DNA of 64,000 nucleotides from Pigoraptor vietnamica (Eukaryota > Opisthokonta > Filasterea): the NCBI GenBank assembly GCA_943704525.1, contig CALSCQ010002712.1, positions 28,907-92,906 of the forward strand, written 5' to 3'. The notes under the pieces were generated by a model that saw nothing but the letters and a program-made list of their open reading frames with translations, did no database searches and had not been told where the DNA came from. The position numbers and the translations under genes are program-made. How positions within the stretch are numbered: the first letter of the stretch is position 1; each line of letters begins with the position of its first letter. Below, piece after piece: positions 1-61,829 of the stretch.

Positions 1-3000
1 ATGCGCACGTGCGCGGACCGCTTCGGTTCGTTTGCGGCGTCCATCAAGTCGAGCGAGGTGGTCGATGACGCTGCGCTGGGCAAGACGGAAGCGCTCGTCA
101 ACTCAGTGTGCGCACAGTTTGTTGCTGATGCCACGGCGTCGGCGGACCAGCTCACGAAGGTGCGAAGGCGGCAGGCTCTGTTTCGGAGGCAGGGGCTGCT
201 TGCTCTCGTCGCGGACATACTCGACGCTCCTCAGGCACTTCGCCTGTCGTTGAACCGACGAGAGGAAGAAGGAGACATATCGGCCACGGCTGGAGACACA
301 CCCTTCCGGCGCGCCATCCGCGCATTTTACCGCCTGCTCGCTGCGGCCCTGCGCGGGAACGACGAAAGCTGTCTATTTTATTCGGAGTCGGGGCGCCTCG
401 ACCGGCTGTTTGAGCGCGCTGGGTATCAGCTGGACGTGATCGAGGTGATTGGAGTTCTTGTGGAGCATCCGGGCATCGTGCAACGCATCCGCGACTACCA
501 CGTCGCGTGCCTCGTCGAACTGCTCCGTAAGCACGGGCGCAGCCACCGCGTGATCGACCTCCTCTCGGCTCTGTGCCTGTGCCGAGGGCAGGCAGTGCGT
601 AGGAATCAGGAGCACGTGATGTCGGAGCTTATCGGGCGGCACCCGGACCTTCTCCTTCGCACGCAATTGGTCGCACACGTGGAGACCCTTCGGCCGAACG
701 TGAGCTTTGGTTACAGGGACGGCGAAGCAAGCAGCAGCCGATGGTACTACGAGGTCACTGTGCGCTCGCGCGAGGAGAAGTCGTGGATGTTGCGTGTTGG
801 ATGGGCGACGACAGGCTTTCAGCCACTCCCGAACGAGGGTGTCGCCGTTGGCGACGACCTGTTCTCGTTTGGTTTTGACGGCGCGCGCAAGTGGCACGCC
901 GGTCGTTCTGAGCGGTACGGTCCCGGGCGCGATTTGCAGGACGGCGATGTCGTTGGCTGCTATCTCGACCTGAAGGAGCGCCTCGTCTTTTTTGCGGTGA
1001 ACGGGGAGAGCTGCGACATCGCTTTTGGCGGATTCGACACGTCCGGCTCGTTTTACCCGGCGATCAGCGTTTCCGACGGCACGACCATTGGGTTGAACTT
1101 CGGCCAGGCGCGTCCCTTTTCGTACCGCCAAATGGAGGCGTACAGCGGCGTGCACGAGGCGCGAAGCCGCGGGCGCGACATGGAAGTGCACCCATGCCTT
1201 TTCACAGGAAAGCCGCAGTCGGATGGAGGTCGGCAGGTCGAGCGGTTCGAGCTCATTGGGCCCGGCGACTACGAGGAGCACGTGTCGTTTATTCCGAAGC
1301 CCGTCGATACGTCGCTCGTGAAGCTGCCCAGCGAGATTGTGCCGCTCACCGAGCTCATCGCCGAGAACATCCACGACGTGTGGTCGCGCGACAAGATTGG
1401 CGCGGGGTGGACGTGCGGAGAGCGGCGCAACGATGCGGCGAAGGTGCACAACCTCCTCAAGAGCTACGCGCAACTGACGGACAGGGACAAGTCGTACAAC
1501 CGCGACCTCGCCTTGGAGACGCTCAAGGTGCTGACACAGCTGGGCTATCGCGTGATTAGTACGGCAGCGCCGAGCGATGCGCGCCCCACGGTCGAGTTGC
1601 CCGAATCGTACCGCCTCCCGAACGGCTACAAGCCGCGCCCCATCGATACGGCACGCATCCAGCTGTCGGAGGAGCTCGAAGCGCTTGTCGGCATTATGGC
1701 GGAGAACTCGCACGACGTGTGGGCGCAGCAGCGCATCAAGGAGGGTTGGACGTTTGGGTTTTCGAAGGACGACCACAGCAAGCGCAACCCGATGCTCGTG
1801 CCATTCGACCAGCTCGATGCGCAGTCCAAGGAGAACAACTCGATGACTTGCCGCGAGATTCTCAAGACGATCGTCGGGTTTGGCTTTCTCCTCGAGCCGC
1901 CGCCTGTCATGGACGTTGGGAGGGAGAAGGGCCTTTCGCGCAAGATGGCTGGTATATGCAAGAATCTGCGCAGCTTTCGCGCGTCGCGTCGCTTTGCGCT
2001 CACGCGCCGGCGTTGGTACTACGAGGTCGACCTGCTCACGGACGGTTACATGCGCATCGGTTGGGCGACGGATGGGTTCTCTCCGCAACCCCGCCAGGGA
2101 CGCGGCGTCGGTGATGACAAGTTTTCGTTTGCGTTTGACGGGTACCTAGTTCGTAAGTGGAACGGCACGTCCGAGAACTACGGCCGCACGTGGCGTGCGG
2201 GTGACACGGTTGGGTGCCTGATCGACCTCGACGCGCGCCGCATCTCGTTTTCGCTCAACGGACAGCCGCTGCATACGGGCGACGAGCGCGCCGGGCCCGC
2301 GTACGCTTTCGAGGGGTTCGATGGGGGCCGCGCGTTCGTCCCTGCGATCTCCCTGGCGGCCAACCAGCGCGTGCGCGTCAACTTTGGTGCGGCGCCCATG
2401 CGCTACTTCCACCTGTACGGCCTGCAGGAGGGCTACGAGCCCGTGTGCAACGCGAGCGTGCACGACATTGCCATTCGGTACTCGAGCGACACGACCACCT
2501 TCCAACAACTCCAGGATTCGGACGGCATCGCTATGCGTCTTGTGCGGTCGAGCGAGACCTTCTGCGAGTTTGTGGCGCAGCAGACACGCCCATCGACGAC
2601 GACGTCCGAGCCTTCTGTGCTTCGCTTGAACATGGGCATTGCGGGCGAAGAGCGCGGTCGCTACTGCTTCGAAGTCGAAATCCACCCCGGGCAGGACGAG
2701 CGCAACCTGTTTGTCGGGTGGGCGACGTCGGCGTATCGTGCGAGCCCTGCCGAGAGCTCAATGGGCCTCGGTCGCTTTGCGTACCTCCTCGACGGCCGAG
2801 CACTCGCGGCGGCGCGCCCGAAGCGCACATACGACGACAAGCGCCGCGTTCTATGTGTGCTCGATCTTGACGAGGGATGGGTGCGGTTCGTTGTGGACGG
2901 CGAAGACCTCGGTCAGGAGGGCACGCCAGGCTTCACCGGCCAACATCGCATCGAGCGCGGGTTCCGCCTCTTCCCGCTCGTCTGCATTGCGCCGACGTGC

Positions 3001-6000
3001 CCAGAGCCCGTCAAGGTCCGCATTGGGCGAAACGCATCGATGAACTGCGAGTCCCTCTGCGCCACTCTGTATGGCTGCAAGAACACCCCCGGCCTCCTGC
3101 GTGGCGTCTCGCCTCGTCGCCTCGAGTTCCAGCGGCTCGTGTCCCCTGTGTGGCGACCGGTCGACCCGCCGGCGCATATTGTCACGTCGATTATTGACCG
3201 CGACCTTGTTGCCGACGCCGCCTTTGCCACGGCTGGAAAGGTTGCGGGAGATCCGTTGTCGTGCGCGCTGCACCCTTCTTCGCGGTCGCTTGTTGTGCGC
3301 ATCGAGGAGACCGACGCGGTTTCGCACCTTCCGAGCCTTTTCCGCGGGCAGCGTTTGACAGAGTACCATGTGTCCACTCTTCGACTCCTTTCGACGTTGT
3401 GCGCCGGCGGGAACATGCTCGGGCAGGACGTGCGACGGCGCTTTCTGGACGACCAGCAGCTCGTCCACTGCATCCGTCTTGAGCAACTGCCGTCGAACGT
3501 CCGCGTAGCGTACTTCGACTTTGCGCTCGCTCTCCGGGAGCCCCTCGAGAAGCTGACGGGCGAGGGCGCCGCGACCCAGTTCGTCTTCAATTCGGAGTCG
3601 GTCTCGACATTCGACGGGGACGGAGCGCTGGACCAGGTGCGGTCGGGCTCGCTCTACCGCAAGCTCAAGATGTACGTGCTCGCGTGGATGAACTATCGCC
3701 TCCACGCCGCGCCCGTCAATCCCACTGGCGCGCGCGGACACCACTGGATCAAGGACGAGTCGGTCGCCGTCGCGATGTTGCGGCTGTGCGCGGACATGAT
3801 TGCGCGCGGCGAGTTCTCGGACGCCGATATTGCGTGGCTGATGCACGCCATCGAGCCGAGCACGTTCTACGCCGCGCCTTGGGCGCCTGTCCCCGCGTCG
3901 TCGTTCATGGGCCTCATCAACCCCAACGTCAACGAGCCGATGCAACTCGAACTCTGCTCCGTGTTCCACGCCCTTTGCGACCGCCTTCTCGTGATGCGCA
4001 CGCGCGATGTCGTGCGGATGGCCGACTCACTCGTGCTCGGGTGTACCGCGGCTCAGGTGGCCGCCGAGCGTACGGGAAGGGGCCGCAGGTCGACGGTTGC
4101 GGAGCGCATTCGTATGTCCGTGGCGTTGAACGATCAGGTCGAGAAGATGTTGGCGGACCCAAAGAGTCCCAGCGTGAACAGGATGCACATGCGCGTGCTT
4201 GCCGCGTGCCGCGGCCTGGGCGAAGCTTTCAGCCGCGCGGGGACGAGCCAACGCACGTCGATCGACTGGGAGACGGAAGGGTGGCTCGCGAAGCATGCTG
4301 CGGTGCTGCACTCGTTCGTTCGCGACACTGTCCTCGGCTGGACCGAGCGGCAGATTTCGACACCCGCCCTCGTGCAATCGTCTGCTGGCCTCCTCTACCG
4401 GCAGTACGCCATCGTGGAAGAGCTGCAAGGAGCCCTTGAGTCGACGCGGTTCGTGAGGACCGTCGAGGGTGGCTCGTACATGACGCACGTGGTCGCCGCC
4501 CTGCGTGAGGTCGTGCGCGTGCGGATGGACTCGAAGACGATGGATTCGACGCGCGCGCTTATCGAACACCTTTACCAGCAGTGCTCGCTGCCCATGACGT
4601 CCGCACGTGCGTGCGCCGAGGTGCAGGACCTCCTTCGCGGCATCAGCGCGTACGAAGTCGTCATTCGCCTTATGGAGAACATTGTCTCGCCTGAGGTCCA
4701 CGCCTACGAGGCTGCGGCGAGCCTACCGGGACTCGAGCGTGACGTCCTCCGCAAGCTGCAAGCAACCCAGGCTCCCGGCGCGCACGCGTTGATCACCCAG
4801 GGTGCTGGGCGTCGCGGCAGCGTGCGCACCGTCCCCGTCATCAGCGAATATTCCGCTTGGCACGAGGTGCTTCGCGAGATGCAACAGGCGTCGCACTTTG
4901 CCAACGTCGAGGCGCATGAGGATGCGACTGGACACCTCGCCGTTCCGACGGCGGCGGACATGAGCGCCATCCATGCGTTTGCGGCTGCGGCCGCCGCGGC
5001 GAGTGCCGCTATGCAGGAGCTTGGTGACCTTCCCGTGGGTGAGACGCGTGATGCCGGCGAGCCCACGCCGACTGGCCGCGGACGCGCGCTTCTGTCTCGC
5101 ATCTATGCGCGTCTGGGGTTGTCCACGGTCGAGCAGCGCGCCGAGTTCCTCGAGTCCACTCTTCGGGAGTGGACGACGCCGCGGTGCGCTTCTGTTATGG
5201 ACGGGCCTTGGCTGCGCCCCGGCATGTCCCTCCCCGAGGCCGTCACGTGCTCGCGCGAGCTCTTTGCGACGTGCTGCCGATTCCTCGTGTACTTCTGCCG
5301 CAACAACAGGGCCAACCAGCGCACGGTGTTTCGGCACGTCGACTTCCTTCTCGGCCTGCTTGGGCGCTGCCTTCCCGTTGCGGAGACCATCGCCGAAGTT
5401 CTCCGAGGAAACGACGATCTCTACAACCTCATGGGCGATCGCCGCATAGAGTACGTGGTCGGCCACCTCGCACGCAACGTGCGTGCCGGGCTCTATGGTG
5501 ACCATCATCTGTCCATCCTCGGCCTGATCGTGCGCGGCGGCGACGCGCACACGGACACGAACGGCCAGTCGCCGTTTGACTTTGACAAGCCGAAGAGTCG
5601 CGGGCAGACGACGACGACGTCCGGAATTACAAACGCCGCGCTTGTGCTGAAGCTGCTCGTGAAGCGCCCCGAATGCCTCGTGCTCTCGACGAACAGCGAA
5701 AATCGGCAGCTTGTGGCCGCGACGCTCGGGTACGAGTCGCACTTCGGCTCCGGCGTGCTCCCGGGCGACATTGGCTACCACGTCGACTTGATCGAGTTGT
5801 TGGCCATGTGCGCGCCGGGAGGGTTCGAGTCACGCACGACGGCGGTGGCCTCGCAGGGCATCCTTCGCAGTCTCGTCTCCCTCGAAGACCTCTCGGCCGT
5901 TCTGTGCTCTCCTCTCACGCCGACGTTCGTGAAGCCGCCGTTCTTCCGATACCTCAACGACGTGTACGGCGTGACGAACCGCGCGCTCTTCCTGAGGCTC

Positions 6001-9000
6001 ATCGAGCAATGCGTTATGCGGGACCTACGACACATTGTGTACGCTACGGACGCGCCGCAGCGAGAGAGGTCCGCTCAGTACGTCTACATGGACCTCCTGC
6101 CTTTCCTCGCGGCCAAGTGCGACAACTTCCGCGAGAAGGACGCCGGCTCTGCGATGGTCTATCCGCTGATGAGCGCTGTGTACCAGCTCGGTCGCAACGC
6201 GCGCGGGGCGCAACTCACCGAGGTCACGTCATGCGTGGTCGCACACATGAAGCAGCTCTCGCCGCACATTTTCCTTCGGCTGCTCCGCCGCTGCGCGCAG
6301 GACCTCCTCCGCATCGTCCCGCACACGTCCGTGATCCTCAAGATGCTCTTTAACTTTTTCGAGCGCCACGTGGCGTACTTCGGCTTTGTCGGTGACCGTG
6401 CGTTCGGCATGGCGTCGAACGAGGAGCGGCAGGTCGCGGAGATCCTCTTTGAGCGACTCTACGTGCTTGTGTCCCGTGACCGCGAGGACCTCGAGGCGCA
6501 AGGCCTTCTCATCGACGCTCTTCGTGCGCTGTGCGCCATCGGCAGCCACCTCTCGCCCGACACGCTCACTTCGTCTGTCGACCGCAACTGGCTGCGGGAC
6601 GACGACGCGGCGTTCGAGGGTGCGCACGCGATCGCGTACCGCCCGTCGCCGCTCTTCACCGACCACATTCGCGTCCCTCCCGATCTCGCGCCTCTCATCG
6701 AGCGCATGGCAGAACACATGCACGAGACTTGGGCGTCGGAGCGGTACCTCCGGGCGCAGCGCAGCTACCTCGCCCAGCAGCAGCAGCTCCATCCCCCCGT
6801 GCCTCCGCAGCCGCACAGCACACCGCAACCGCCCTCGATGCAGCAACCCCCGACGGGCCACGAGCGCGGCCGTCCCTCCCTTCCAAGCCTCTTCGTGCCC
6901 TCCATGGGCGCGCCTGCGCCGCGCACCCGCAGCCCGTCCCCGGTCCGGGGGCCGTCGCTGTTTGTCACGCAGTCATCGCAGCAGGCGACGCAGTCGCCGC
7001 CACCGATTTCATCGATAGCATCGCCAATGCTTTCGGGCCTTCCAAGCCTTGCGGTCATTGTCCCCGCACTGCAGGCGCACGCCCTCCCCCCTCCGCGCGT
7101 CACCGGCACGCGCCGCCGCGACTACGTGCCGTGGAACGAGTGCACGCCCGCATACCGCGAGCGGCTTCTTGGGGAAGCGCGCGAGGCCGTTCGCGCCTTG
7201 CTTGCGCTCGGGTGCACGTTTGAGCGCGTTCGCGAGGGCCCTTCTGTGGTGCAGGCGTCCTTTATGGACAAGCGGCAGCTGAGTCACGCTAGCCAGCTCT
7301 CGACGTCGTCGTCGTCGCCAACTTCCCTCGGGATCAACTTCACTCCGAAGTACGCGTCCGACGGAGAGGCCACTCCTGAGGGCGACAGGACGCCGACGTA
7401 CAACCCCAAGCCCTTGAACCTCGCTGGCGTGCCCGTCCACTCGGCCCTGGATCCGATTGTCGAGCGTCTTGCCGACCACAGGCACGAACTGTGGGCCGCG
7501 GCGAAGCTCAGCTCCGGGTGGCGATACGGCTTGCGGCCGAAGGCTGGGAAGGTGGGGTTTGAATACCTTCGGCTTATTGATCGTGAGCTGCTACTTTGCC
7601 TCAATATCATTTGTGCTGATGACACCATCCATTCTTTCGTACAGGCTGTGCGGGAGAACCCACGCCTCGTGCCCTATGACATGCTCACCGATGCCGAGAA
7701 GCTGCCCGACCGCAAGTTTGCGCTGGACGCGGTTAAGGTAAGCGTCGGTGCACGACGTACACTAGTTCGTCGTGGCGTGTGGGCGGACGCTTTTGGCGCG
7801 TGATGCGCTTGGGCTTTGGGCGCGTGATGCGCTTTTGTGTTCATTCTCGATGCAGCGCCCTCATGCCCAATATTTCCTACAGCTTGCGACCGTGGTCGGT
7901 TTCGACATCAAGGTCGGTGCAGCCGTCGACGTCGAGACGACGCCAAGCGGGCCGGAGCAGCGCTTTGCGGCGAAGCTCCTGCGCATGGCGGAAGAGAGCA
8001 TCATTCTCGCCGAGCATGTCAAGTCGCAGTCGCTCAATGGCGGCGGCAAGCAGCATCTCGGCCGGTCGATTTCCGTCACTCCCTCGACCTCGTCCAAGCA
8101 GAACGGCACGCCCCAGGCGAACGGCGTGTCGCCGCATAGCCCACCTCCGCAGAGGAGGAGGTCCGCTGCGTCGCCACCGGAGCGACGAAGACGCGTGACG
8201 ATCGCCTCGCCTACAAGCAGCCCGCAGAAGCAGCCGCCGCCGCCAGTCACGCCTACGCCGCCGCCAGCAGCGACGCCGCCGCTCGCACAGAAACCGCCCC
8301 AGCATCCCCAAGGGTCGCCCGAGTTCGTTCTCCACGCACTCGTGCCTCTTCTCACGCAGTGCGTCGACATGCACCGCACGTACTTCCTCGGAACCAACGC
8401 CAACGGATGCGCGAGTCTGGTGGAGCGCCGTGCCGCGGAGGCCGTCTTCGACCGCCTGTTCCGCATGGCGCGTGCTCGCGTGCGGTCGCGTGACGTGGCG
8501 TGGTGCACGCTGGCCTCCCTGCGCGCCTTCAACTTCTGCTTCCAGTCGATGCTGCGCGCACTTGCGCCCGAGGCCTTCGCCAAGCACCTCACGAGCTGCC
8601 TTGACGACATTTGCCGTGCGGGCGAGTCCCCCGAGCAGGTGTTCTCCGTGGCGCTCCCTTGCGTGGCCGAGTTCTGCCGCCGCGTGCCCAAGGGCCGTCT
8701 CGGGGACGTCGCTGGCACGCGGCCCCTGCAGGAGCTTTTCCGCGCGACCCTTTGCCTGCTCGAGGGCCCCTCGATCGACATACCGCTCCGTCGCACGTGC
8801 ATTGGCTCGGCGCTCGAGGCGATGGTGGGCCTCCTGCCGCCGGATTCTGTGGCGAACGCGGACGTCTCCGTCGTGCCGTCAGTCGAGGCCGCTCTCGACC
8901 TTCTTCGTGAGGTTTCCGCTGGACGCAAGGACAAGCGGCGGGCGTTTGTTGTCGAGTCACTTATCCCCCTCGTGTGCGGTTACGCGAGTGCGCATGCGCC

Positions 9001-57268: not shown

Positions 57269-60200
57269 TCATCCCGTGAGGTGTCTGTTGCCCGACGACA
57301 CCATCGACATGCGCATCTTCTCCATCTCTCCCATGAGACGGCGGACCTCGCTCTTGAGCTCCGTGTTTTCCTTGAGGAGCCCGTCGGACGACGACGTCAT
57401 GCCAAGCATCGTCCCGTCCGCCGCCATGCCGTGCGCGCTCGACGTCTTCCGGTCAGAGTCGCCGTAAATGTTCGTCTGGGCAAGCTCTCCCTTGCCGCGG
57501 AACACGAGATAGAGCTTGGGACCAAAGATAATGCCCACCATCACGCCGATCGTAAGCCACCTGCGCGAGAGGAAGGCCACAGTAAGCAACAGTATAGGAA
57601 CACTTGCGACATCGGCGTGCGAGGCCAACAAAAGGAAAGCGGCAAGACGGTGCACGGCAATCGAGAGCACGTGCACACAGCGAATCCCACGCCCACGCAC
57701 GCGTATGCGGTGCGGCCACTCACACAAAGAGGCAGTCGAGTGCGTAGGTCGTGTCGGGCTTCTCGCTGATGACGAGGCGCAGCACGATGAGGAGGACGCC
57801 CATGACGATCCAGTTGTAGATGCACGCGACGATGCCGCGCGACTCGTTGAAACCCGAGGGCGCCTTGCGAACGAGGAAGGACAGGAAGACGCCCGCGATG
57901 AGGAACACCAGCTCCGCGATAATGATCGCATTGTTCCACCACGTCCGCTTGCAGCTGCAAAACACAGGTGCGTAAGCAGAAGCATAGGAACAAACACGCG
58001 CGCATGCACTGCGCGTATGTAAGACAAGCACACGTGCGCCGCACACGGGAAGTGGGACCCACCGAATGTACTCAATGTCGCCGTCGATGACGTTCTCGAC
58101 GTCGCCAGGCTGCACAATCGTCCACACGATGAGGTAGATGGTCCAAATCGCGATAATGACGGCGAGGCGCTTGAAGAGGTCGAGGTCGCTCAGCTTGATG
58201 CCCCGCGCGTTGCGGACGTTGATGATCATCATGATACTGCGCAGGCACAGCGGTAAGCGACGGCATCCGAGAGAGTGTCGCAGGGCGCCACAAAAGTACG
58301 CATGCACATACCATGCGCACACTCAAGCAAGCACATATGCCCGAATATGTCAAGTGCACAGGCGCGTACAACGCGTTTGTACGGCAAGCACACACATAAT
58401 TACTGCCCGCAGTGCACGGAGAGCACACGCAAAACATACCGGTATGTCTTGTAGAAGATGGCGCCGAACGCGAGCACGAAACCGAGGTGAGAGAGCCAGT
58501 TGGACGCGGTGCAGAGCGAGTCGGTGAGGTCCTTCGGGAACGTGATGAGAATCTGCGGAGTCAAAAGTGCGTCAGACCACACGAAGGGCCACACGTGCCG
58601 TCGTTGCAAGCAAAACATCAAGAGCGAAAGACGAGCTTTCGCAACCCACCGAGATGAACGACAGAATGGCACCGAGGAGCGAAATGTAGAGGAACGTCGG
58701 CGAGGCGAGCTTGAAGATCTTTTGCTCCTGGTAGCGCCACAACAGACCGGCAACGACGAGCGTGCAGAACGTGAAGATGCACGTGAGGACGAGGAAGAAG
58801 AGGCGCAGCGATTCGTTGACGCCGTCGTCACCTGCGGGCAAAGCAAAAGAGGGGCGGTCGTGAGATTGAGTGTAACAAGACAAGAGTCTTGTAACAGCAC
58901 GATGTAAATGGACACTCACGGACGAGGCACGTGACCGAGCCGGGCGTCAGCGTGTACGAGCGCGCTGCACACGGAAAGCACGTCGAGTTCATGCCGTCCG
59001 CGGCGCCGGCCGAGAACGTGTTGATGGGACAGGGGCGGCACGTGGCACCCGAGGTGGCGTAGCCCGGCGGGCATCCGAACACGGCCGACACGTTCAAGGC
59101 GAGACCAACGGCGCTCGTGGCCTTGGCCGACGTGATCGCAACCGAAAACTTCGGCGCCATGACGTAGAAGGACGAAGGGACGGGGTCCGTCGTCGGGCTG
59201 AAGCGCGCAAGCTTCTCGACTGGCGAGGACGCCGTCGTGTCAATGTACGTGATCGGCTGAAGGGGATCGCTGGCGTAGAACACAACCGTCTCGTCCGACG
59301 CGAGCGCAAAGTTGCTGTTGGAGGTGACCTTCTGGAGGACGGGGTTGACGGGGACGGCACCGACGATGCGCTTCGCAGGGTTGAAGGAGACCGTGACGGA
59401 CGTCTGCCGGCGGTACGACGACGAGCACGCATCGCTCCACGACGTGCCGTTCGAGAACGCAACTGTGGTGGCATAGACGCAGTCGCCGACGACAGGGGCG
59501 GTCTCTGTCGGGGCGGCCGTTGCGCCCGTCACAAACCTGAACCGGCCCGTCGTCACGTTGTACGGACTGTTCTTGGCCATGTAGTTGACGGTGGCATCGA
59601 TAATGTTGCCGATCTTATCGAGGGCGTCGAGCACGACCGACGTCGACTGGAGCATCACGTAGCCGTCCTTGCCCGCGCGCACAAAGTTGTTCGTGCACAC
59701 GAAGTAGATGCCGGCGGGATCGATGTTGCGGGGAATGCCAAACTTGTCGATCACCATCGCCGACACGACGCGGATGGGCGCGGGAAGGTCCTTGTTGACG
59801 ACGAGGCGGAAGCGAGAGCTTAGCTGTGGACGGGGGCGTTATGTCAGCGCCATATACGCGCATATTCAAACGCACGCACGCGCAGGCACGCGCACAGGCA
59901 CGGTCACAACACATACGCACACATACGCACACGCACACACACAACGCACGCAACAATGCACGTGCCACACAGGCTCACCTGAAGGAAAGGCGACAAGCCC
60001 ATCTGCGACACCGACAGCTGGAGGATGTTGAGCAGGTCGGCACCGGGTATCTGAATCGCCGAAATGGTGTTCGTCGGAAAGCCGACGTCCTCGACGGTGT
60101 ACTGCAGCACCGTCCCAGTGTTGATGGGGGCACGGAATGTGCCCGTGTTGACAAACGCAATGTCGCACTGTCCGTTCGAGACGTCCACCAGAGCGTCCGC

Positions 60201-60760
60201 CATAAAATTGCCCAGCTCGCACTCGCCCAGAAAGCAGCGCGAGTGGTCCATGTTGGCGTAGTTAACACCAATGACGACGTTCGTCGAGTTGATGCTCGTG
60301 AGCGTCGTCGTAAGAATCGAGTCGAGAGCAGGGTCGGGGACGACGCAGCCGCCCGTCGGGTTGTTGTTGTCGGCGCACGCCTTCAGCATGTACGTGTTGC
60401 CCTTCGCGTCCAGCACGCGGCTGCCCACTGGGTTCGTCATGTTCACGTCGACCGTCACGTTGAGCCGGCCGTAGTAACGCGCCTGGCCGAATGTGCTGAC
60501 AAAGTAAACGGTTCGCTTGGCTGCGCGGGAAGGAAGGACGAGAGGAGATGGCGAGGTGAGATATGACGTATGCAAGCATGGCCGAGGGTTGACGGGCGTT
60601 CGATCGCACAAACGTGAAAGGGACATGTAAACCCACGGGTGACGATCTTGGTCGGATAGGGTCCGCTAGCAGCAGGGTCGACGCCGTTGGCGAGATGGAT
60701 GCCTCTGTAGGCAACAGAGAATGAGTTACCCACGCACGCACGCACGCACGCACGCACGCA

Positions 60761-60843
<83 letters not shown>

Positions 60844-61829
60844 GACATGCCCGCGCCAAAGATGCACCGACCTTCCGATCACCACGTCAATGCCGTCCAC
60901 ATCCGTCACCATCTGCCTGTCCACAGTGATGCCTGCGGCGCTGAGAGCCACGATGAGGTCCACCTTTTCGACGTTCCGGAGCTTTTGAACCTGCGACAAT
61001 CGTACATAAACAACGATCGTTCAGCATTTCGTAACCGGCATTCACGCACATAATTGAAAAAGCACACACCTCTGCGCGAACGGCCGTCGTTTGATCAAGG
61101 ATGCGGACGCGGAAGTCGCATTGCGTGCGGCCGCACAGGTCCGGGCGCGTGTATCCCACGACGCCGACCTTGAACTGCACGCCGTCGACCGTCATGTTTG
61201 CGACTGCGGAGCGCACGACGGTTCCGGCGAAGAAGTCGAGGCCGCGGTCGTCCATGCTTGCGACGACTCCCTTGAACGGCGCATTGAGAAGGAGCTGTCG
61301 CCAGTACGACGTGCCGAAGAAGAGATCGCCCGAGTTGAGCCTGCGGCGCAAATGAAGCTGAGCGACAGCATTGGGGGCGAGCAATGCGAGAGTGACTTGC
61401 ACTCACCCCATAAAGTCGTACTTGGCGTCCTCGGCGAACTTGCGAAAGATAGCCGTCCCATTCTTCTGGAGAAGGCGCGTGCTGCTGAGGAACGTGCCAG
61501 AGTCGACCGTCAGCACCTTGTTTGCGCCAAGCTCGGCGCGCACGGCGTCAAACGCCGACTTGATGCGCGCAGCACCGCCAACGACTGCCTGCGTACGACA
61601 ACACGGCATAAAGCAAAGTGGTGAGAAATTCATGTAGAGACACGGAGTACGGCCTGAATGGGCGAGGCGCACGCACATAGTTTGCCTTGTCGAAGGGGCT
61701 CCCATGCACTCCTTGGTCGAGCTCGTTTGTGTGAAGAATGGTGAAGGACACGGGCACAGCGCGCGCCCCAAGGGCAACGAGGAGGACGAGAGTGCACGCA
61801 AGCGCACTTCGAGCAGTGATGGACGCCAT
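57269..61829 (-). CDS. Class C 7TM receptor with degenerate 5'-nucleotidase ectodomain
   Basis: Twelve exons: 61829-61677, 61588-61407, 61340-61070, 60990-60872, 60704-60637, 60520-59979, 59823-58920, 58831-58650, 58552-58440, 58236-58063, 57954-57724, 57560-57269, giving 1076 aa. A signal peptide (1-24) is followed by a 5'-nucleotidase/UshA-like region (about 27-620), a Cys-rich stalk (CPPGYATSGATCRPCP and TCFPCAARSYTLTPGSVTC, about 690-745), seven TM helices (about 750-1000) and a heptad-like tail (LLKENTELKSEVRRLMGEMEKM). The 7TM part is class C/GABA-B-like: KLASPTFLYISLLGAILSF in TM2, CTASNWLSHLGFVLAFGAIFYKTYR in TM3 and GPKLYLVF after TM7. The enzyme fold is recognisable by FTILHTN, VGVVGYTRP, FVNTGTFRAPI and YFVCTNNFVRAGKDGY. 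All metal motifs are altered: DxH to ELD, GD to DSG, GNHE to LNSGD, LSH to LSA, GGHSH to GRGIH. Inferred role: a sensor rather than an enzyme, perhaps of nucleotides or nucleosides. Confidence 0.88.
60731..60841. repeat. (CGCA)n and (CA)n microsatellite in receptor intron 4
   Basis: A CGCA tract runs into a long CA tract inside intron 60705-60871; on the gene's sense strand it reads TG. Confidence 0.95.

Follow-up and report, generated by a model that had tools for sequence, protein, structure and literature searches.

A predicted class C seven-transmembrane receptor with a pseudo-5'-nucleotidase ectodomain in Pigoraptor vietnamica

Gene model and domain layout

We analysed a 64,000 nt stretch of the genome of the filasterean Pigoraptor vietnamica (contig CALSCQ010002712.1, positions 28,907 to 92,906; this whole stretch is called the window). 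The window has a GC content of 60.5% and belongs to a draft assembly of 32.5 Mb in 1395 contigs. A gene on its minus strand, located at 61829-57269, contains 12 exons that join to an ATG-to-stop frame of 1076 amino acids (aa), and the Pfam domains 5_nucleotid_C and 7tm_3 are present together in the one predicted protein. An initial annotation, made from the sequence alone, had described this gene as encoding a class C seven-transmembrane (7TM) receptor with a catalytically dead 5'-nucleotidase ectodomain. This central observation was confirmed by Pfam, by alignment with the solved 5'-nucleotidase 7qgm and by the gene model. Rfam and ARAGORN scans of the window gave no matches. The exons and the parts of the protein are located as follows (window positions):

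61829-61677, 61588-61407, 61340-61070, 60990-60872, 60704-60637, 60520-59979, minus strand: exons 1-6
59823-58920, 58831-58650, 58552-58440, 58236-58063, 57954-57724, 57560-57269, minus strand: exons 7-12
57269..61829, minus strand: whole gene for the class C 7TM receptor and its pseudo-5'-nucleotidase ectodomain (gene model, GC at third codon positions)
61749..61829, minus strand: predicted signal peptide, aa 1-27 (hydropathy segment aa 9-27)
60414..61748, minus strand: metallophosphatase-like N-terminal half (aa 28-300), which has lost its catalytic residues (7qgm alignment, weak NCBIfam matches)
59515..60323, minus strand: 5'-nucleotidase C-terminal (substrate) domain, aa 331-548, with the PF02872 core at 60257-59647 (Pfam, E 2.9e-21)
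59071..59514, minus strand: middle domain (aa 549-696), unmatched by Pfam, with similarity to stretches of locus C204
58921..59070, minus strand: Cys-rich stalk (aa 697-746), matched by Ephrin_rec_like below its cut-off
57515..58817, minus strand: class C 7TM, aa 752-995 (7tm_3, E 7e-45; GPR158, E 2e-21; seven hydrophobic segments)
57317..57397, minus strand: cytoplasmic tail (aa 1035-1061), which may form a short coiled coil (HALZ below cut-off at E 0.044; alignment with the tail of Capsaspora P0014)

All 11 introns have GT..AG borders, and the GC content at third codon positions is 84% compared to 56% in the introns. The continuous 12-exon frame of the initial annotation, with 1076 open codons, is thereby borne out, and the continuity of the predicted receptor as a single gene is supported. 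It is very improbable that two neighbours, one for a nucleotidase-like secreted protein and one for a class C 7TM protein, were falsely fused over the intron 58919-58832. Retention of this intron would lead to a stop at 58828-58830 and thus to a soluble ectodomain, which would agree with two genes, but the intron is in phase with the borders GTGAGT..CCGCAG, exon 7 ends with the Cys-rich stalk and hydropathy gave no second signal-peptide-like segment ahead of the 7TM. In addition, in two related loci of the same genome (C145 and C877, see below) the end of 5_nucleotid_C is followed by open frames with one to two good introns that lead to a transmembrane (TM) segment and a signalling domain, and the available text of two surveys already contains the pair of 5_nucleotid_C and 7tm_3 (PMC3251606, PMC12716839). 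Because the intron is in phase and the paralogs show comparable joins, we rejected an artefact made from separate genes. A decaying pseudogene or an assembly artefact, for which the draft state of the assembly with its 1395 contigs and an apparent frame change in the C877 kinase might speak, can be practically dismissed in view of 1076 open codons, 11 canonical introns, a strong codon bias and a 7TM that matches Pfam well.

A hydropathy scan (19-residue window, threshold set by us) revealed the N-terminal segment at aa 9-27 and, after a long gap without further ones, seven segments within aa 759-992, so that, by hydropathy alone, seven membrane segments follow a large ectodomain with a signal peptide. 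Pfam places 5_nucleotid_C at aa 353-504 (E 2.9e-21) and 7tm_3 at aa 752-995 with 154.1 bits against a cut-off of 33.5, which assigns the receptor to class C. Both domains had been expected in the initial annotation together with Metallophos, which was not reported by Pfam up to E 1. Nor did Pfam report the Venus-flytrap ligand domain ANF_receptor within this limit. The class C family does not require a Venus flytrap: its members may have OpuAC, Cache or other ectodomains, according to the available text of a 2012 survey (PMC3251606). The proposed Cys-rich stalk joining the ectodomain to the 7TM is present, and Ephrin_rec_like matches it at aa 703-742, though below its cut-off (E 0.0017). A heptad tail had also been proposed; the HALZ match below cut-off lends it weak support. 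Between the nucleotidase part and the stalk we found an additional domain of approximately 150 aa (549-696), which had not been listed before.

From the stalk onwards, the protein was compared with solved structures and matched GPR158 (E 2e-21), GPR179 (1e-19), GABA-B2 (7.9e-16) and mGlu2 (1.3e-14). The GPKLY motif was found at aa 993-997 as described. The 7TM had been called GABA-B-like, which is correct as far as class C is concerned, but GABA-B as the closest relative was rejected since GPR158 and GPR179 both outscore GABA-B2. The top 7TM match in the protein database is Capsaspora P0014 with 34% identity, and its tail can be aligned as well; Capsaspora P0016 shows 41% identity over a shorter 7TM stretch. 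The genome encodes further class C 7TM receptors, three with ectodomains that by eye are kelch/filamin-like (C200, L037; C471, L035; C1305, L033) and one with an ectodomain that by eye is rich in repeats (C100, L034).

The nucleotidase fold and its active site

Two solved 5'-nucleotidases align over both halves of the nucleotidase-like part: 2z1a over aa 19-505 (E 6.3e-24) and 7qgm over aa 13-548 (E 6.7e-23), which shows homology over both domains. Matches to the NCBIfam models SoxB and UshA-like cover roughly aa 50-245 and fall far short of the cut-offs. As judged from these alignments, the N-terminal half clearly corresponds to the N-terminal half of 5'-nucleotidases, despite the missing Pfam Metallophos match.

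7qgm is human CD73, and the residue numbers fit. In CD73, D36, H38, D85, N117, H118, D121, H220 and H243 bind the metals or act in catalysis. The alignment, read by hand, gives E36, D38, T83, S115, G116, F119, A220 and G243 in their place, with the last assignment depending on an adjoining gap. None of the eight residues is identical (0/8), and the His/Asp catalytic pair H118/D121 is replaced by G116/F119. The initial annotation had stated that the metal-binding motifs have lost their ligands; this holds with one correction, the first position being a conservative change from D to E. The motifs concerned, all read from the 7qgm alignment, are:

61716..61724, minus strand: E36-L-D38, replacing D36/H38 of CD73
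61493..61504, minus strand: D80-S-G-T83, replacing DAGD (D85)
61319..61336, minus strand: NSGDLF, replacing GNHEFD (N117, H118, D121)
60931..60942, minus strand: SAAG, replacing GHSG (H220)
60695..60876, minus strand: GRGIH, interrupted by intron 4, replacing GGHSN (H243)
60132..60149, minus strand: NTGTFR, N389 and R394 kept (N390, R395 of CD73)
59659..59685, minus strand: FVRAGKDGY, F492 and D498 kept (F500, D506 of CD73)

Intron 4 (60705-60871) contains a long TG/GTGC simple repeat.

CD73 carries its metal site in the N-terminal domain and its substrate site in the C-terminal domain, and the open and closed states differ by a rotation of up to 114 degrees, as given in the available text of PMC8677862. 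There, adenosine monophosphate (AMP) is contacted by F417 and F500 at the base, by N390 and D506 at the ribose and by R354 and R395 at the phosphate (PMC8677862). Four of these six contacts are kept in the window protein (N389, R394, F492, D498). The claim that the nucleotide-side motifs persist is therefore right for NTGTFR and FVRAGKDGY and incomplete for the pocket as a whole, in which R354 and F417 are changed.

Related loci and their outputs

A profile search of the genome with PF02872 gave 16 matches on 11 contigs, including that of the window. Together with locus C879, which was found with the window protein, this results in 11 other loci as a lower bound. A hidden Markov model built from 13 nucleotidases (P0001-P0013) was run on the six-frame open reading frames of these loci, and the residues at the functional positions of CD73 were counted per locus where covered. 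C853 was left out because it covers 45 of the 295 N-domain columns and its membership is doubtful. Catalytic positions are kept in 1/21 cases, compared to 103/189 for N-domain control positions (at least 90% conserved in the 13 enzymes), and the single kept position stems from an additional fragment of the window gene that is out of register, the true residue being T83. AMP-pocket positions are kept in 46/65 cases, and other C-domain positions conserved to at least 90% in 163/249. In Fisher tests the N-domain contrast has a value of 8.6e-6 and the C-domain contrast one of 0.46; the sequences are related and the cells not independent, so these values serve as guides. With C853 included, the counts are 2/22 for the catalytic positions and 47/67 for the pocket.

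The catalytic coverage comes from C1118, C1273, C145, C204, C243, C877 and the window gene, and mostly concerns D85, H220 and H243, the H243 column being H in 77% of the 13 enzymes. All six paralogs with a usable alignment of the catalytic half have lost every catalytic position covered, and C822 by eye also lacks H220. The pocket is complete in C1273, C145 and C938 (6/6) and, as far as covered, in C204 (5/5); five of six positions are kept in C1118, C243 and C822 and four of six in C877, as in the window gene. D506 is kept in 9/11 loci counted, the window included. A loss focused on catalysis, with the fold signal retained and the pocket retained in most members, would be expected of a sensor derived from an enzyme.

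A search of the genome with the insect 5NUC P0005 yielded 8 matches on 7 contigs among 13 candidates scored, all on known loci (C1273, C145, C822, C938, C877, C1118, C802), and thus no intact enzyme of the 5'-nucleotidase family was detected. PF00149 gave 16 matches on 11 contigs, none of which is shared with the PF02872 contigs. In the draft assembly these match counts are lower bounds.

The architecture is not a one-off: it is already in print, and within this genome 5_nucleotid_C is joined to several kinds of output. A kinase or cyclase output exceeds the Pfam cut-off in four of the 11 other loci and is weak in three; two more lead to a polytopic part, and the last two, C243, which extends to the contig end, and C853, have no output assigned. 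In C877 the end of the nucleotidase C-domain is followed by an intron with canonical borders (8309 to 8220), then by a stretch that looks fibronectin-like by eye but is not reported by Pfam, by one TM segment and by a tyrosine kinase (PF07714, 1.2e-33 and 2.9e-40) with the motifs HRDLAARN and LPVKWMAPE. Between its two kinase pieces, which hold the DFG and APE parts, an apparent frame change is located that is either an assembly error or real. C145 contains 5_nucleotid_C (8e-18), a stretch that resembles EGF domains but stays below cut-off, a TM segment, a kinase-homology domain (4e-38) and then a cyclase, with Guanylate_cyc pieces of 1.9e-7, 1.6e-18 and 1.7e-11 in this order and 1.4e-8 in a separate Pfam run. 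Of the 12 steps between anchors in C145, six are open, three have a good intron and three are unconvincing; the latter lie within the nucleotidase (two) and within the cyclase (one). From the nucleotidase end into the cyclase, the chain is unbroken. PF00211, the adenylate/guanylate cyclase family, has 96 matches in the genome, counted exon by exon and thus representing fewer genes. The remaining outputs above cut-off are kinase pieces in C1118 (6.8e-6 and 2.7e-5) and C802 (4.6e-6, with a second piece at 2.2e-3 and Pkinase at 5e-7 below cut-off). In C822 (L040) and C1273 (L041, L060) the end of the nucleotidase precedes a weak EGF-like stretch and, by eye and hydropathy, a polytopic membrane part that matched no Pfam family. 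The middle domain and stalk of the window protein match C204 with phmmer (E 4e-5 and 3.1e-6, small database), the sole locus in the comparison with significant matches to both. Apparently, the same three-part ectodomain is combined with a 7TM in one case and with a kinase-type receptor in the other.

A 2600-aa open frame is located elsewhere in the window on the plus strand (1-7800). It is ryanodine-receptor-like (RyR 2e-89, SPRY 7.8e-62, RIH 1.5e-37), in an apparently unicellular eukaryote.

A putative nucleotide sensor and its relation to known receptors

The window gene probably encodes a class C G protein-coupled receptor (GPCR) in which a full-length CD73/UshA-type fold serves as a non-catalytic sensor that would act like a Venus flytrap. 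The C-terminal domain would hold a small ligand from outside the cell, which most likely resembles a nucleotide or nucleoside, while the N-terminal domain closes, a relative movement of the two domains for which the swing of CD73 offers a precedent. Movement or force might then pass via the Cys-rich stalk to the 7TM. The further loci in the genome, whose catalytic halves are degenerate where they can be aligned, strengthen the proposal that an enzyme fold was turned into a receptor. Taken as a whole, the initial interpretation stands for the fold as judged by sequence, the catalytic loss, the single gene and the class C 7TM, and has to be restricted for the pocket, which is kept in part (4/6). 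The alterations R354F and F417P suggest a ligand other than plain AMP. More tentatively, the dead nucleotidase clamshell could be an independent counterpart of the Venus flytrap, used by one protist lineage as a general sensor of extracellular nucleotides on polytopic proteins, a class C GPCR, a receptor guanylyl cyclase and receptor kinases, among them a tyrosine kinase, without any intact enzyme of the family.

Several points weigh against these proposals. In the window protein, two of the six AMP contacts are lost (R354 is F361, F417 is P413), E36 and D38 could still bind a metal, and a structure prediction for exon 7 with 13 homologues reached a predicted local distance difference test score (pLDDT) of 42, was unusable and was not used. 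In the paralogs, D36 and H38 are never covered, and N117, H118 and D121 are covered in C243 alone; C802, C822, C879 and C938 have no N-domain match and stand outside the catalytic count, and the doubtful member C853 retains H220, the sole catalytic position covered there. The pocket is absent from C802 and C879 (0/6 each), and nucleotide binding is thus not common to all members. The gene models of the paralogs consist of single exons and guessed introns, and their joins between ectodomain and output are predicted from the DNA sequence. Kinase matches stay below the Pfam cut-off in C204 (7.5e-4 and 1.2e-3), C879 (7.6e-4) and C938 (0.093, with a glycine-loop-like stretch by eye), and in C204 no bridge was found between ectodomain and kinase, though order and strand fit one gene. 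The idea that every paralog retains the nucleotide site was rejected because of C802 and C879.

The same changes would fit an ectodomain that is a structural, adhesion or protein-binding module with a relic pocket, driven by a protein partner, by dimerisation or by mechanical pull, and CD73 itself is a dimer. The window protein lacks one phosphate contact (R354) and one stacking contact (F417), and the whole pocket is gone in two paralogs (C802, C879). Still, retention is similarly frequent at pocket positions (46/65) and at the other conserved C-domain positions (163/249), and D506 is present in 9/11 loci counted. We regard such a module as unlikely, with a modest chance of being right. We consider it highly unlikely that the ectodomain is a tethered ectoenzyme with residual phosphoesterase activity or another hydrolysis based on unusual metal chemistry with E36, D38, D80 and H245. 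The first two metal positions are indeed acidic and H245 adjoins the lost H243, but H118 and D121 correspond to G116 and F119, D85, N117 and H220 are all replaced, and six paralogs with a usable N-domain alignment have lost all catalytic positions covered.

For the non-catalytic sensor that we favour, the domain combination of the window receptor is already known, since 5_nucleotid_C on class C receptors has been published. A 2012 survey lists 5_nucleotid_C in the Capsaspora glutamate-family receptor CASP_EFW44378.1 (PMC3251606), and a 2025 survey lists 5_nucleotid_C and Ephrin_rec_like among the domains of glutamate receptors from choanoflagellates and further close relatives of animals, but not from animals themselves (PMC12716839). 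In their available text both give the combination without explanation and without a remark on lost catalytic residues, the N-terminal half or other receptor types; the word nucleotidase appears once in the main text of the latter. Going beyond the initial annotation, 11 other loci carry the domain, several with kinase or cyclase outputs. Among the papers found in a collection with few subscription titles, none was seen to describe a dead nucleotidase as part of a kinase or cyclase receptor, and the available texts on holozoan tyrosine kinases (PMC8662651) and on the Acanthamoeba genome (PMC4053784) contain no nucleotidase receptor; Acanthamoeba is described there as having no glutamate-like GPCRs (PMC4053784).

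Protein searches for relatives of the fusion gave 13 matches, all nucleotidases, in the first search, which scored only the 8000 candidates sharing most words, and 8 matches among 7265 candidates, class C without PF02872, in the second. Capsaspora P0016 as query gave 5 matches among 1907 candidates, one of them P0016 itself, and no fusion. The published Capsaspora fusion is also missing from the matches; the search requires shared 5-residue words, and the lack of fusion matches does not show absence.

If a dead sensor is indeed common to GPCR, kinase and cyclase receptors, a further clamshell would serve many outputs beside the Venus flytrap, and it would be a direct candidate for extracellular nucleotide sensing in some unicellular eukaryotes. 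By their domain descriptions, the published class C receptors share 7tm_3 and 5_nucleotid_C with the window receptor; the available text of the 2025 survey does not state whether Ephrin_rec_like sits in the same proteins (PMC3251606, PMC12716839). GPR158 (mGlyR) and GPR179 have the closest solved 7TM by sequence, with a match that extends into the Cys-rich stretch before TM1, whereas their ectodomain is described as Cache plus EGF-like (PMC12716839). Human CD73 and bacterial UshA resemble the window protein in the whole two-domain length and in some AMP-contact residues. C360 and C365 stand at the place of the CD73 pair C353/C358, which forms a disulphide there. CD73 and UshA are glycosylphosphatidylinositol-anchored or periplasmic enzymes, whereas the window protein is a predicted receptor with no metal ligand or catalytic dyad residue identical to theirs. 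The Venus flytrap also occurs in natriuretic-type receptor guanylyl cyclases. On a kinase output it is found in the Venus kinase receptors, according to the available text of PMC4026697. These Venus-flytrap receptors (mGlu/GABA-B, receptor cyclases and Venus kinase receptors) likewise combine one two-lobed ligand domain with GPCR, kinase and cyclase outputs, but the Venus flytrap has the fold of periplasmic binding proteins, which is unrelated to the nucleotidase fold described here.

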